Made by a program: the position numbers and the translations under genes. From NCBI GenBank assembly GCA_030043435.1, contig JASHXR010000053.1, forward strand, positions 1-9,279: a DNA stretch of 9,279 nt, read 5' to 3'. The notes under the pieces were generated by a model. It worked only from the letters and a program-made list of their open reading frames with translations, made no database searches and had not been told where the DNA came from. Shown here one piece after another: positions 6,523 to 9,279 of this stretch (position 1 is the first letter of the stretch; the number at the start of each line of letters is the position of its first letter). The stretch is from Microcaldota archaeon. Lineage in GTDB: Archaea; Micrarchaeota; Micrarchaeia; Micrarchaeales; CABMGC01.

Positions 6523-6864
6523 TCACTCCTTCATCCTGGACTGCTTCGCCGCCGCCCCTCCGCCGCCTTGCCTGTTCATCTGGACTCCTAGATAAGCTAT
6601 CTTGTACCCTATGGACGCAAAGAGGAAGAGCACTATCACCTCTATCGCAGTGTATGTGCCTACAGTCGCAGTGCTCTGCAGGTTGGCAGTTAGGGCGCTG
6701 ATCGAGCCGTTTACGGTACTGCTGCCGCTCCCGGTCCCTATCAATGCCAGGCTATTGAGGTCGCCATTGGCGCTCGAATAGACCCCGTAACCCAGCAGCA
6801 GGGCCAGCAGGATTATGGCTATCCCGACGCCTATCAGAGCATACCCAAGATACGACCCGTCCAA
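6523..6864 (-). CDS. Small two-helix membrane protein, function unknown
   Basis: A 113-residue protein not recognised as a named family. A first hydrophobic helix (about 6-29, LGYALIGVGIAIILLALLLG) is followed by a 35-residue polar loop rich in Ser, Gly, Thr and Asn. A second helix is at about 68-92 (YTAIEVIVLFLFASIGYKIAYLGV). The tail (RQGGGGAAAKQSRMKE) is glycine-rich and basic and probably cytoplasmic, which places the loop outside. The start is TTG, supported by GGGGTG 5 nt upstream and by a TATA box at 6894-6904. It is the first gene of the operon with cca and the J-domain gene. Its link to tRNA maturation is positional only. Confidence 0.72.
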   Translation of the reverse strand: MDGSYLGYALIGVGIAIILLALLLGYGVYSSANGDLNSLALIGTGSGSSTVNGSISALTANLQSTATVGTYTAIEVIVLFLFASIGYKIAYLGVQMNRQGGGGAAAKQSRMKE

Positions 6865-6927: not shown

Positions 6928-6999
6928 GGGCTCGTGGCGCAGCGGTAGCGCGCATCGTTCGCAACGATGAGGTCGCGGGTTCAAATCCCGCCGAGTCCA
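6928..6999 (+). tRNA. tRNA-Ala (anticodon CGC)
   Basis: A complete 72-nt cloverleaf without introns. The acceptor stem GGGCTCG (6928-6934) pairs with CGAGTCC (6992-6998) and discriminator A is at 6999. The third pair is G3-U70, the main alanine identity element. The D arm is GCGC/GCGC with loop AGCGGTA. The anticodon stem is CATCG/CGATG with loop TTCGCAA, giving CGC at 6960-6962, which reads GCG. The variable loop is AGGTC. The T arm is GCGGG/CCCGC with loop TTCAAAT, which also forms box B. The 3' CCA is not encoded; TAG follows. A T5 run at 7028-7032 may end transcription. Its last 11 nt are repeated twice downstream, marking it as an insertion site. Confidence 0.97.
6989..6999 (+). repeat. 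Insertion-site repeat copy 1 (tRNA 3' end, attL-like)
   Basis: CGCCGAGTCCA, formed by the end of the T stem, the acceptor strand and the discriminator base. Identical 11-mers lie at 8252-8262 and 9100-9110. Base composition changes from GC-rich to AT-rich immediately after it. Confidence 0.75.
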
Positions 7000-7000
7000 T

Positions 7001-7052
7001 AGTACTTAAAGCCCGTAGGACTCTATGTTTTTATCACATGGATTTAAGTACT
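7001..7052. repeat. Perfect 10-bp inverted repeat beside the tRNA
   Basis: AGTACTTAAA (7001-7010) and TTTAAGTACT (7043-7052) are exact reverse complements with a 32-bp spacer. The core AGTACT recurs at 7158-7163 and 7569-7574, giving four copies within 575 bp. They may be binding sites for a recombinase or a cassette regulator. Confidence 0.5.
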
Positions 7053-7079
7053 TTTCAATTGGTAGGTGACATTCCCTTT

Positions 7080-7137
7080 AAGGTAAAGTGTACCCCAATT
7101 CCGTTGGACTTACTGTCCATGGTACGTGGCTTACCTT
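7080..7137. repeat. Nested inverted-repeat structure at the end of the PPC gene
   Basis: AAGGTAA (7080-7086) pairs with TTACCTT (7131-7137), and GTACC (7090-7094) pairs with GGTAC (7121-7125). Two small overlapping hairpins (CCAA/TTGG and GGAC/GTCC) lie between them. One arm covers the TAA stop of the minus-strand gene. No T-run follows, so a simple terminator is doubtful. Confidence 0.4.
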
Positions 7138-7520
7138 ATTACAAGTTCATTGTATCCAGTACTTTTATCAAATTTCCTTAGAAATTGGTAATCTTCAAAC
7201 GCTGCAATTACAACTTCTGCGGTAGTGTCAACTAAGCAATTATTCTTCATGTGTCCGCCTATACAGTTACCTTTTCCATCAGACAAAGAAATATGCAAGT
7301 GTACATCATCTTCTGAAATTGTGCCTACCAAAGAAACAATCTCTAACTGCTTTTTATAATCTTTGATTGTTTTTGCCCCAGCCATTCTGATAGTTGCTCT
7401 GGTCAGGCAGCCTACACAGGTAAGAATACAACCTGCTTTTATGTGCTTTCGCTTGGCAAAATTTACTATTTCTTGCTTTAAGTCTAAGCTCCGTGTTACT
7501 CTAAATGCATAAACTTTCAT
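7131..7520 (-). CDS. PPC (DUF296) domain protein
   Basis: A 129-residue single-domain protein of the plants-and-prokaryotes-conserved (PPC/PCC) family. Family features are MKVYAFRVTRSLDLKQEIVNFAKRKHIKAG with VGCLTRATIRM, then HLHISLSDGKGNCIGGHM (74-91) and a late strand TAEVVIAAF (100-108). H74, H76 and H90 match the conserved histidines that bind metal in prokaryotic structures of the family, where trimers are known. In plants the domain sits next to AT-hooks and contributes to nuclear DNA-binding proteins; prokaryotic single-domain versions have no settled function. Several cysteines (31, 35, 38, 86, 95) are notable. The ATG at 7520 lies about 26 nt from a minus-strand TATA box, so it is probably leaderless. 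Its AT-rich codons differ from those of the genes before 7000. Confidence 0.85.
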   Translation of the reverse strand: MKVYAFRVTRSLDLKQEIVNFAKRKHIKAGCILTCVGCLTRATIRMAGAKTIKDYKKQLEIVSLVGTISEDDVHLHISLSDGKGNCIGGHMKNNCLVDTTAEVVIAAFEDYQFLRKFDKSTGYNELVIR

Positions 7521-7540
7521 GATTTCATTTGATTACCAAT

Positions 7541-7551
7541 GCTTTTAAATG
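7541..7551 (-). promoter_or_regulatory. TATA box of the PPC gene
   Basis: ACATTTAAAAG on the minus strand lies 21-31 nt from ATG 7520, fitting leaderless transcription. Confidence 0.45.
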
Positions 7552-7566
7552 TGTAAGAAAACGTGC

Positions 7567-7854
7567 TTAGTACTTGAATCGTCTTTCATACTCTTTATGT
7601 GGAAACCATTCTAATAGAATGGCTATTATCTCAACTTCGTTGCCAGCTATTGAATATACTAATCTCCATGCATCTGGAAGATTGTACTTCCATAGGTTGT
7701 TTATCCCGTACTTTTGCTTGTATATCTTTGGTATCAGGCGTTTTGGTATTTCTATACCACATTCTGGGTTTGCCTTCAGATCGTCAGTAGCCCTGTCTAA
7801 AAACTTGTACAGGACTGGATTCTCTTCCTTTGACTTGAAGTAAGCCTTCTGCAC
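7567..7854 (-). CDS. relE: RelE-family toxin with apparently lost start codon
   Basis: RelE toxins cut mRNA on the ribosome. From GTG 7854 the frame gives 95 aa with the archaeal RelE core IPKRLIPKIYKQKYGINNLW, KYNLPDAWRLVYSIAG and the tail LEWFPHKEYERRFKY, which holds the basic and aromatic residues typical of the active site. The frame stays open upstream to a stop at 7915-7917 and encodes NSNRKVSVVFADEKVQKAYF, the expected first strand and helix of RelE, but no ATG, GTG or TTG occurs there. The natural start position is ATA at 7897-7899, overlapping the antitoxin stop as ATAA instead of ATGA, with GGTG 5 nt before it. The GTG start would drop about 15 residues including strand beta1. It is thus either a point-mutated, silenced toxin, an ATA start, or a weak GTG restart. 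Confidence 0.8.
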   Translation of the reverse strand: MQKAYFKSKEENPVLYKFLDRATDDLKANPECGIEIPKRLIPKIYKQKYGINNLWKYNLPDAWRLVYSIAGNEVEIIAILLEWFPHKEYERRFKY

Positions 7855-7895
7855 TTTCTCATCAGCGAAGACGACGCTGACCTTTCTATTGCTGT

Positions 7896-8156
7896 TTATT
7901 TTAACACCAAGTGGCTATTACTGTACTTCTTTACAAGTTCTGGATTCCATATCCAGATTACCTTTCCGTCCTTTTCTATAATCTTGCCAGATTCCCTTAG
8001 GTAGTCCAATATTACATTGAAGGTCTGGTACATAACCTTCCTCTTCAATGACAGCCATAGCTGACGCTTTGATGGGTATTCCCTTGCTTCCTTAAGGGCT
8101 TCCTCTACCATAAGCACTGTGTCGAGCCTTGGATAGTGAAGCATTTGCTGTTGCAT
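7896..8156 (-). CDS. Winged-helix protein, likely antitoxin of the RelE pair
   Basis: An 86-residue basic protein that reads as one small winged helix-turn-helix domain: YPRLDTVLMVEEALKEA, then YPSKRQLWLSLKRKVMYQTFNVILDYLRESGKI (recognition-helix region) and the wing KDGKVIWIWNPELVKKY. This sequence type is familiar to me as the gene just upstream of archaeal relE genes, where it probably acts as antitoxin and autorepressor; that role is inferred from context, and the classical RelB ribbon-helix-helix is absent. Its stop TAA (7896-7898) overlaps the expected relE start. ATG 8156 lies about 26 nt from a strong minus-strand TATA box, so it is probably leaderless. Met5 is a less likely start. 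Confidence 0.75.
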   Translation of the reverse strand: MQQQMLHYPRLDTVLMVEEALKEAREYPSKRQLWLSLKRKVMYQTFNVILDYLRESGKIIEKDGKVIWIWNPELVKKYSNSHLVLK

Positions 8157-8171
8157 GATAGTATATACACA

Positions 8172-8188
8172 TATATAATATATAAGCC
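8172..8188. promoter_or_regulatory. TATA region of the toxin-antitoxin operon
   Basis: A run of TA steps that contains CTTATATA on the minus strand (8180-8187), 24-31 nt from ATG 8156. The same stretch reads as a TATA box on the plus strand (ATATATAATATATAAG) and could drive an RNA across the repeat copy at 8237-8262. Confidence 0.5.
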
Positions 8189-8236
8189 TATCTATTACCT
8201 GAAAACCATGTACTTTACAACCAGAGGTCTACGGCT

Positions 8237-8262
8237 TTGAAGCATCATAATCGCCGAGTCCA
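8237..8262 (+). repeat. Insertion-site repeat copy 2 (TTGAAG-N7-ATCGCCGAGTCCA)
   Basis: TTGAAG (8237-8242), 7 variable bases, then ATCGCCGAGTCCA (8250-8262). The last 11 bases equal the end of tRNA-Ala and the last 13 equal copy 3. GCATC (8242-8246) and GATGC (8302-8306) can pair around it, and a GGGG-TATGAAT-CCCC hairpin (8284-8298) lies inside that span. CAACCA also precedes copies 2 (8218-8223) and 3 (9075-9080). Confidence 0.7.
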
Positions 8263-8343
8263 ATTTCACTTTACGATGGAGCAGGGGTATGAATCCCCCA
8301 CGATGCATTTAGCTGTATCTTTAGGTGGTGTGTATTACCGCAT

Positions 8344-8357
8344 AATATTTAAATATT
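8344..8357. promoter_or_regulatory. Palindromic promoter/operator of the membrane protein-ArsR operon
   Basis: AATATTTAAATATT is a perfect 14-bp palindrome containing a TATA-like core (TTTAAATA, 8348-8355). It would place a transcript start near 8380, 11 nt before ATG 8391. A dimeric ArsR-type repressor bound here would block the promoter, so autoregulation by the protein at 8610 is plausible. Confidence 0.45.
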
Positions 8358-8390
8358 TAATTAATCATTAATATATCACACCGTTGATTT

Positions 8391-8594
8391 ATGTTGAAAC
8401 GTGATAGTATGGTAAACCCCCTGTATTTGAAAGGAGTCGGAGTTGGACTGTTAATAGCATGGGTGACAGGCGCATTAGCCTATTGGCTGCAAAGGAAAGG
8501 AATCAAGCATACAAAACTTCCTATACCAATAGCACTAATACTACTTGAATTCGTGCTGAGTGTTATATTCTTGGCACTATCCTATTTGATATGA
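8391..8594 (+). CDS. Small two-helix membrane protein paired with an ArsR regulator
   Basis: 67 aa, not recognised as a named family. There are two hydrophobic helices, at about 14-32 (GVGVGLLIAWVTGALAYWL) and 44-66 (PIPIALILLEFVLSVIFLALSYL). They are joined by a basic loop (QRKGIKHTKL) that should face the cytoplasm, with both ends outside. ATG 8391 is used with the palindromic promoter at 8344-8357; ATG 8409 would give 61 aa. It ends 15 nt before the ArsR-type gene, so the two form an operon. In Bacillus an SdpR-type repressor is paired with the membrane immunity protein SdpI; the pairing here is similar in kind, but this protein is much shorter and shows no clear similarity to SdpI. A membrane signal or immunity role is a guess. 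Confidence 0.65.
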   Translation: MLKRDSMVNPLYLKGVGVGLLIAWVTGALAYWLQRKGIKHTKLPIPIALILLEFVLSVIFLALSYLI

Positions 8595-8609
8595 ACTAGA
8601 ACTGATAGC

Positions 8610-8912
8610 ATGGGAACCCTGTGGAAAGCTTTGGCGGACGATAGTCGCAGACGGGTTTTGCTCATGCTGATAGATGGTGAGATGACCCCGAGTGAGATTG
8701 CTACCAAATTCGATTTCACTCTGCCGGCCTTGTCCACCCATCTGCGAATCCTCAAAGACGCTGGGCTAGTTGTCGAACGGAGAGAGGGAAAGCGCAGGGT
8801 CTACTCCCTTAATGCTGAGGGCATGGACGAATTATTTAGATTCGTAGACGCATTTTGGGCATATCCGCTGCATAATTTGAAACGTTACTTCAAGGGTAAA
8901 AAGAAAATGTAG
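8610..8912 (+). CDS. ArsR-family (SdpR-like) transcriptional repressor
   Basis: A 100-residue winged helix-turn-helix protein. LWKALADDSRRRVLLMLIDGEMTPSEIA (4-31) is the ArsR start, FDFTLPALSTHLRILKDAGLV (34-54) holds the recognition helix, and VERREGKRRVYSLNAEGMDEL (55-75) is the wing. The 'LADDSRRRVL..L..GEMTPSEIA..F' pattern is that of the SdpR type. The ELCVC metal-binding motif of ArsR/SmtB sensors is absent and there is no cysteine, so metal sensing by cysteine thiolates is excluded. The tail (WAYPLHNLKRYFKGKKKM) is basic. It follows the membrane-protein gene by 15 nt and probably represses their shared promoter. Confidence 0.9.
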   Translation: MGTLWKALADDSRRRVLLMLIDGEMTPSEIATKFDFTLPALSTHLRILKDAGLVVERREGKRRVYSLNAEGMDELFRFVDAFWAYPLHNLKRYFKGKKKM

Positions 8913-9084
8913 GAGTTAGAGAGGAAGCTGTCTGAAGCGATCCGCGGACAGATGAGCTTTATATCACATAGCAGGCATATTGCGTTATAATGCAACTGTG
9001 GCGAAGTTTCAATACATCGTATATAAATGCCTATACAAAATATATAAAGTGTCCAATTACCGAGTGCAAAGGCGCAACCATCAC

Positions 9085-9110
9085 TTGAAGACCGCCTATC
9101 GCCGAGTCCA
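9085..9110 (+). repeat. Insertion-site repeat copy 3 (TTGAAG-N7-ATCGCCGAGTCCA)
   Basis: TTGAAG (9085-9090), 7 variable bases, ATCGCCGAGTCCA (9098-9110). The spacing is the same as in copy 2. The last 11 bases equal the 3' end of tRNA-Ala. Confidence 0.7.
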
Positions 9111-9187
9111 TGACGTTCATTACGCCCATAGTGCGACTTACCAACTATGGTTAATGATGGTTTTATTTGTAAAGACTTTGTAGCAAG

Positions 9188-9198
9188 GTTTAAATATG
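9188..9198 (+). promoter_or_regulatory. TATA box of the terminal antitoxin gene
   Basis: GTTTAAATATG is centred about 34 nt before ATG 9227 and would give a leader of a few nucleotides. Confidence 0.45.
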
Positions 9199-9226
9199 TT
9201 TATTCACATAATAATTATGTGGTTAT

Positions 9227-9279
9227 ATGCCAAACATAACTTTAGTCGTAAGCGAAGAACTTAGGAGGGATATGGAAAA
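9227..9279 (+). CDS. Ribbon-helix-helix antitoxin, N-terminus only (VapB-like)
   Basis: Only about 17 residues are visible before the window ends: MPNITLVVSEELRRDME. A short beta strand (NITLVV) followed by 'SEELRRDME' is the typical start of archaeal ribbon-helix-helix antitoxins, often VapB paired with a VapC PIN-domain RNase. The downstream toxin is not in the window, so the pair is a prediction. The ATG is supported by the TATA box about 34 nt upstream. It is the first gene of the third cassette after repeat copy 3. Confidence 0.65.
   Translation, partial: MPNITLVVSEELRRDME

Follow-up and report, generated by a model that had tools for sequence, protein, structure and literature searches.

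Small gene cassettes between displaced tRNA 3' ends behind tRNA-Ala(CGC) in Micrarchaeota

The stretch studied here (the window) comprises all 9,279 nucleotides of contig JASHXR010000053.1, read on the forward strand, from the assembly GCA_030043435.1 of a Microcaldota archaeon placed in the Micrarchaeota, and it carries an array of small gene cassettes behind the gene for tRNA-Ala(CGC), with a copy of the tRNA 3' end between one cassette and the next. This array was probably built by serial Campbell-type insertion of cassettes at the tRNA gene, and the enzyme is predicted to be a tyrosine recombinase that acts in trans. To our knowledge, little has been established about gene gain in such small-genome cells. 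The nearest known kind are the additive flexible genomic islands of bacteria at tRNA genes, for which the accessible parts of the reports on Actinomarinales (PMC7771536), Methylophilaceae (PMC10872708) and Alteromonas (PMC4119200) describe an exchange of cassettes between genera and, in the Methylophilaceae island, a repetition of the last 20 bases of tRNA-Lys. As far as those parts allow a comparison, the locus shares with these islands the addition of cassettes at a tRNA gene, the direct repeats of the tRNA 3' end that border the units, and a unit content that differs between relatives at the same location. It differs in being archaeal, in its 11-bp core and its units of median 1.0 kb, as well as in end classes that are common to unrelated cargo and one recombinase element and in a crossover that we place within the last seven tRNA bases.

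Elements with a tyrosine recombinase are likewise described at archaeal tRNA 3' ends, tandem ones included, and the accessible parts of these reports (PMC8371274, PMC6563490) give thaumarchaeal attachment repeats from 8 bp with a median of 17 bp, and cryptic elements of 2.6-98 kb. Enzyme class, target, short attachment repeats and tandem integration at one locus are in common with the arrays described here, but most units here consist of one to three genes and have no recombinase. Integrons, in what is available of PMC9668308, resemble the locus in that small gene cassettes are arrayed beside one anchor site, whereas here there is no IntI and no attC fold at the window junctions, the anchor is a tRNA gene and cargo lies on both strands. 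The layout is integron-like, but the array falls outside the integron family. Tycheposons are bordered by tRNA genes, have a tyrosine recombinase and carry variable cargo, all of which is found in the present arrays too. In the accessible part of PMC10872708 they are cargo elements of 4-200 kb, as opposed to the 1-kb units here. Among the matches listed in a search of the open PMC literature, there was no description of such arrays in Micrarchaeota.

The tRNA anchor and its displaced 3' ends

The window is one whole contig (C125) of an assembly of 746,368 b in 125 contigs, with an estimated completeness of 70.6%. Its anchor, core copies and cassettes are the following.

6928..6999, + strand: tRNA-Ala(CGC), anchor of the array; intact, CCA not encoded (ARAGORN, and Rfam RF00005 at 70.9 bits)
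6989..6999, + strand: core copy 1, CGCCGAGTCCA, the 11 terminal bases of the tRNA; exact match
7000..8262, + strand: cassette E1, 1263 bp, GC 0.38; closes with core copy 2
8237..8251, + strand: right-end motif TTGAAG-N7-AT, 5' of core copy 2; exact motif match
8252..8262, + strand: core copy 2, displaced tRNA 3' end; exact CGCCGAGTCCA
8263..9110, + strand: cassette E2, 848 bp, GC 0.43; closes with core copy 3, left end of class A (see below)
9085..9099, + strand: right-end motif TTGAAG-N7-AT, 5' of core copy 3; exact motif match
9100..9110, + strand: core copy 3, displaced tRNA 3' end; exact CGCCGAGTCCA
9111..9279, + strand: first part of cassette E3, truncated where the contig ends; assigned by similarity to a PIN-toxin cassette of relatives

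Core copy 1 presumably corresponds to tRNA positions 63-73 in standard numbering, and the gene for the CCA-adding enzyme (cca) adjoins the tRNA gene on the opposite strand. A sequence-only reading of this DNA had placed three copies of the tRNA end at these same positions and had described the segments between them as AT-rich and about 1.26 kb and 0.85 kb long. Both points hold; upstream of position 6800, most 400-b windows have a GC of 0.56-0.65, against 0.38 and 0.43 in the segments. The longer shared block that it had noticed, TTGAAG-N7-ATCGCCGAGTCCA, has exact matches at 8237-8262 and 9085-9110, against 0 expected from 200 shuffles, but only 11 bp are common to all three copies, and the TTGAAG motif is a feature of one kind of right end rather than of the system at large. 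A wide spread of the 13-mer ATCGCCGAGTCCA across the genome would have counted against the array; the 13-mer has 2 matches in the assembled 746,368 b, both within the window.

Of 60 relatives with genomes of about 0.6-1.2 Mb that were searched for the cca gene, 54 have it. The loci analyzed are the best 29, with the downstream regions of 28; the region of G024 was left out because the contig begins with the gene, and L060, which has no tRNA-Ala, was left out of the core count. L064, where ARAGORN calls a tRNA-Phe, was kept because of its tail, while L065 (in G009, chosen for its core match) and L066 (the window itself) are both outside the count. The resulting 27 downstream regions (98,312 b) were chosen only via the neighboring cca gene and not for repeats. 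Within 6 kb, 6 of these loci have between them 7 exact copies, on the same strand, of the 11-base end of their own tRNA, compared to 0 on the opposite strand, 0 for the reversed core and 0.01 expected from 200 first-order Markov simulations. Further loci were a choice among the matches listed in a core scan of 79 family genomes, insertions at tRNA-Ala(TGC) included.

Between the window and L037 the upstream flanks lose similarity exactly at the tRNA 3' base, and in the same-genus pair G011/G082 homology stops exactly at that base and resumes 1351 and 679 bp later. The variable region therefore starts at the tRNA end, and cassette content at the same tRNA varies among relatives. Relatives do not have an unbroken gene order in common, which the sequence-only reading had named as an outcome that would speak against serial insertion.

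Cassettes and their ends across genomes

We delimited 32 complete cassettes in 18 genomes, 17 of them besides that of the window. Of these cassettes 28 are free of a recombinase, and they measure 563-2009 bp with a median of 1029 bp and a mean GC of 0.40. Note that some accepted cores carry one or two mismatches, and that those in L037 (+1253, +2570, +3423), L111 (+1167), L114 (+1852), L115 (+1806) and L124 (+3476) were kept in spite of being degenerate, with flanks like known end classes. Some copies were dropped before delimiting. Those of L113 (+1969) and of L037 (+1927), the latter with its counterparts in L112 and L122, lie within a coding gene and within the Fic gene, respectively; in L119 and L120 a longer tRNA-like stretch takes the place of the second copy; L148 has degenerate copies; and in L065, L100, L103, L132, L133, L134, L137, L139, L140, L143, L144 and L145 the copy stands alone, with no partner. 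The lone copies in L134 and L145 have known right ends.

In a nucleotide comparison restricted to the best nine or fewer partners per cassette and to matches of at least 150 bp, a PIN-toxin cassette of 852-853 bp was found in three genomes from two genera: L037_e3, from the genus of the window, is 93% identical to L111_e3 and 92% identical to L115_e2, which comes from another genus. The homology starts 2 bp 5' of the left core (27 bp in the same-genus pair) and stops 1 bp past the right core, and the neighbors of the cassette differ between the genera. For Fic cassettes homology starts exactly at the core; they occupy slot 2 in L037 and adjoin the tRNA or a tRNA-like end in L043, L047, L112 and L122. 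Both Fic and DUF4258/DUF2283 cassettes stand at tRNA-Ala(CGC) in some genomes and at tRNA-Ala(TGC) in others, and the toxin-partner pair of the window (families F11 and F6) recurs in L037, L044 and L054. Cargo that could be named comprises PIN toxins, Fic, DUF4258/DUF2283, RibD-like, glyoxalase-like, radical SAM and AlkZ-like proteins, encoded on both strands.

The cassette ends were clustered by single linkage at a threshold of 26, where the best of 400 shuffled pairs (left ends only) reached 22. This yielded left-end classes of 15, 5 and 2 members and right-end classes of 14, 8, 3 and 2, with the others single; single linkage puts some distinct-looking left ends together in class A. Both ends are of class A in 11 of the 32 cassettes, and these are the 8.8-kb element L125_e1, which encodes the recombinase IntB, and ten recombinase-free cassettes spanning four cargo kinds (PIN toxin in two families, Fic, and DUF4258/DUF2283). 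E2 combines a class-A left end with a right end common to L037_e1 and L117_e1, whose cargo differs, and it is to this kind of right end that TTGAAG-N7-AT belongs; the 30 bp 5' of core copy 3 deviate in one base from the right end of cassette 1 of L037. Behind the tRNA-Ala of another genus (L149:839-1062), the left end of E2 and its last 170 bp are found side by side, and therefore the two ends of E2 belong together and units also erode. This stretch of L149 may be a cargo-less remnant or a precursor of E2. Terminal inverted repeats are not general, with a mean score of 15.3 for the two ends of one cassette and of 13.7 for ends of different cassettes. E1 has such a repeat, with a score of 27, and is one of 3 among the 32 cassettes that reach at least 26; E2 has none. 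Class-A left ends (e.g. L114, and 8263-8300 of the window) also contain GGGTATGAATCCC or a similar sequence about 20 nt behind the core, which resembles the T-arm of a tRNA and is possibly a recombinase-binding site.

Recombinases and the mode of insertion

Two families of tyrosine recombinases, IntA and IntB, are found at tRNA-Ala in relatives. IntA is a divergent member of the class, with 41.3 bits for Phage_integrase (cut-off 27.1) and 52 bits for the archaeal XerA model (cut-off 220). The residues R, K, HxxR, H and Y, which we take to be its catalytic set, are invariant in 8 aligned sequences. IntB scores 108 bits with the XerA model and stands at tRNA-Ala in L123 and L125, with relatives behind other tRNAs; IntA is found behind tRNA-Ala in several genomes, and intA fragments also occur. 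The IntA and IntB elements at tRNA-Ala genes are 2.0-8.8 kb in size. Integration of an SSV-type element splits the integrase gene, whereas at tRNA-Ala the IntA gene is unsplit and follows downstream of the tRNA (e.g. L042, L061, L052). In L042, L061, L052 and L107 the IntA frame, taken from stop to stop, covers the tRNA gene in part or in full, and int may therefore be transcribed from the tRNA promoter once integrated.

The association of IntA with tRNA genes extends beyond tRNA-Ala. A scan of named genomes gave 160 stretches, and the best 80 of these belong by record taxon to Candidatus Micrarchaeota (72), Micrarchaeaceae (3), Marsarchaeota (4) and a bacterium (1). In 68 of the 80 loci IntA lies behind the nearest tRNA on the same strand, at a distance of at most 374 nt in 65 of them, and the preceding tRNAs include Leu, Glu, Ala, Lys, Pro, Val, Ser and others; among the other 12, six are downstream of a tRNA on the opposite strand, one is placed otherwise and five have no tRNA near. 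The 75 IntA loci with a tRNA within 4 kb contain 38 exact downstream copies of the tail of that tRNA and 0 on the opposite strand, where the tRNA end was picked from four offsets by the most exact copies, which slightly favors matches, and the control used the same tail. In three rows, L189 (Glu), L216 (Val) and L224 (Lys), the first unit is an IntA element and the next two are small cassettes, and the separators are that tRNA's own core, some with one mismatch. A search of IMG/VR for relatives of IntA returned 212 stretches that fit the pattern, of which 0 were confirmed. The genome of the window carries a second tRNA-targeting element, at tRNA-Leu(GAG), where an IntA gene (L107:6658-7545, contig C120) starts directly behind the tRNA and is cut by the contig end.

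A hairpin like AAAACTTCTTGGGAAGAAGTTTT is located directly 3' of tRNA-Ala or of a displaced core in L136, L125, L130, L057, L050 and L059, in some loci with an IntA gene or fragment behind it, and is a candidate terminator or element end. Its interpretation after several tRNAs as a native terminator that marks empty sites was withdrawn, as IntA elements, intact or broken, have it as their left end too (L136, L125 after +8806, L130).

Core alleles bear on the mode of insertion. In L112 and L124 CGCAGAGTCCA closes the tRNA and CGCCGAGTCCA is found as its displaced copy, in L123 the situation is reversed, and in all three loci core position 4 is the only mismatch. As Campbell integration draws the 5' part of the displaced copy from the incoming circle, the crossover is placed 3' of core position 4, within GAGTCCA. 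A crossover in these last seven tRNA bases would favor Campbell-type insertion over a casposon-type duplication, and the three mismatches place the reaction with the tyrosine recombinases, since a staggered target duplication would give identical copies. From tRNA structure, a swap at core position 4 would be expected to unpair the acceptor stem. As in a Campbell-type attachment core that restores the tRNA, an intact tRNA, displaced 3' ends and, in L112, L123 and L124, allele mosaics are found together. According to the proposed mechanism, each cassette would be excised as a circle with its own 11-bp core, which would recombine with the tRNA 3' end inside GAGTCCA; the tRNA would be rebuilt, and the old 3' end would be pushed downstream to become a separator. 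The recombinase would be supplied in trans, from elsewhere, and E1 and E2 would presumably be moved by an enzyme of this class. The cassettes are likely non-autonomous passengers, because tyrosine-recombinase elements use the same tRNA and one of them has both end classes of recombinase-free cassettes.

Several observations weigh against serial insertion in this form. The three differences at core position 4 could in principle be later point mutations. An exact second copy is absent from 21 of the 27 unselected loci, although many of their contigs end early, several within 500 b, and neither a wholly empty site nor an excised circle was seen among the loci examined. The window has no recombinase, as evidenced by family profile scans of its cassette proteins (E1 and E2 encode no integrase), and the sole integrase match in the assembled own genome is the IntA behind tRNA-Leu(GAG), whose 3' end differs. 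The two ends of E1 cluster with nothing in spite of the TTGAAG motif at its right end, left and right end classes mix, and a second IntB element, L123_e1, combines a class-A left end with a right end of its own. Several accepted cores are imperfect, as stated above. L149 has the ends of E2 but lacks its two genes and the right core, and L044_e1 looks like two fused cassettes whose inner core was lost, an AlkZ-like gene and a toxin-antitoxin unit that stands alone in L121; on account of these two loci, erosion explains part of the pattern.

Taken further, erosion would make all segments leftovers of larger integrase-bearing elements that were inserted serially, with small units that are no longer mobile. 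The 2.0-8.8 kb elements at tRNA-Ala genes, the intA fragments, the fused-looking L044_e1 and the E2 ends in L149 are all in line with this, but units of 0.56-2.0 kb whose genes are open and whose ends match are found in more than one genus, and one of about 853 bp retains 92-93% identity in two genera beside different neighbors, so that we regard erosion as an unlikely account of the whole. Insertion by a casposon-like Cas1 integrase, with the tRNA end as target-site duplication, is very improbable. Casposons are reported to use tRNA 3' ends and to generate duplications of about 14-15 bp, and the sequence-only reading had mentioned them for this reason; here the alleles of the 11-bp core differ between tRNA and displaced copy in three loci, terminal inverted repeats are not general, tyrosine recombinases are present at the site, and Cas1 occurs in 11 of the 79 family genomes and not in the assembled part of the own genome.

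A true integron, in which an IntI integrase acts on folded attC sites, is less probable still. The layout, the small size and the partly toxin-antitoxin cargo of the cassettes would suit it, and integrons are reported in archaea in the accessible part of PMC9668308, but genes lie on both strands, and the NCBIfam integron-integrase model (cut-off 265) gives 28.9 bits for IntA and 34.4 bits for IntB. With one strand folded, the displaced window junctions fold no better than shuffles (z 0.41 and 0.31), while among five junctions of relatives that of L115 folds somewhat better (z -2.21) and the other four range from -1.37 to 0.17. Least credible of all are chance repeats or an assembly artefact: the window is a contig of a metagenome-assembled genome and ends inside the array, but cassettes of the same layout are found in 17 further genomes, and the 7 exact copies contrast with 0.01 expected.

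Serial insertion at the tRNA thus retains from the sequence-only reading the small recombinase-free cassettes and the integron-like layout, supported by different cassettes at the same tRNA in relatives, by core-to-core boundaries and by two tyrosine-recombinase families at tRNA-Ala, while the casposon idea is given up. A broader picture, which we put forward tentatively and hold to be somewhat short of probable, is that of a "tRNA-integron": a common stock of 0.5-2 kb cassettes with toxin-antitoxin, Fic and enzyme genes may circulate across Micrarchaeota and be stockpiled behind tRNA genes by dedicated IntA and IntB enzymes, with the acceptor end as platform site and an origin independent of the IntI/attC integrons. 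If true, a fixed platform that stockpiles toxin-antitoxin and single-enzyme cassettes would let genera exchange genes in a modular way, and it would show that plain tRNA-targeting recombinases can give rise to integron-like layouts. With a short core, defined ends and compact recombinases, this is testable in vitro.

Cargo of the window cassettes and minor observations

The remaining features of the window lie within the three cassettes.

7005..7048, + strand: E1, left arm of a gapped inverted repeat; local alignment score 27
7131..7520, - strand: E1, PPC (DUF296) domain protein, 129 aa; PF03479, E 3e-30
7567..7854, - strand: E1, ParE-like predicted toxin, 95 aa, family F11; PF05016, E 0.0014, 19.6 bits, below the cut-off of 23
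7896..8156, - strand: E1, predicted partner or antitoxin, 86 aa, family F6; F6 relatives adjoin F11 in L037, L044 and L054
8199..8242, - strand: E1, right arm of the inverted repeat; pairs with 7005..7048
8391..8594, + strand: E2, small hydrophobic membrane-like protein, 67 aa; open reading frame, composition judged by eye
8610..8912, + strand: E2, ArsR/SmtB-family regulator, 100 aa; NF033788 84.8 bits (cut-off 55), PF12840, PF01022
9227..9279, + strand: E3, first 17 codons of a gene, cut; identical to the first codons of the predicted antitoxin gene in L115_e2

Family F6 is also present in L111. Family profile searches gave no match above cut-off for the 86-aa F6 protein of E1 or the 67-aa protein of E2. 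In a defence-system library the E1 proteins had no match, and the matches of the E2 ArsR protein span its DNA-binding part. The first 169 bp of E3, core included, are 86.7% identical to L115_e2, 81.7% to L037_e3 and 80.6% to L111_e3. The toxin of this cassette in relatives has a PIN domain (PF10130, 84.9 bits, cut-off 22.4), and a profile search with its antitoxin gave no confident family; the cassette type is called VapBC-like because of the PIN toxin and the gene order. With a relative's PIN toxin as query, no match to a continuation of E3 was obtained in the assembled own genome.

The tRNA-Ala(CGC) gene has a predicted anticodon-loop intron in L056, L057, L059, L061, L062 and L063 and none in the window. 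Contigs break at or near cores, as at the window end (9279) and in G064:C14 (L127, 1-11), which stops exactly at the tRNA-Ala 3' end; such breaks are expected where strains differ in cassette content.

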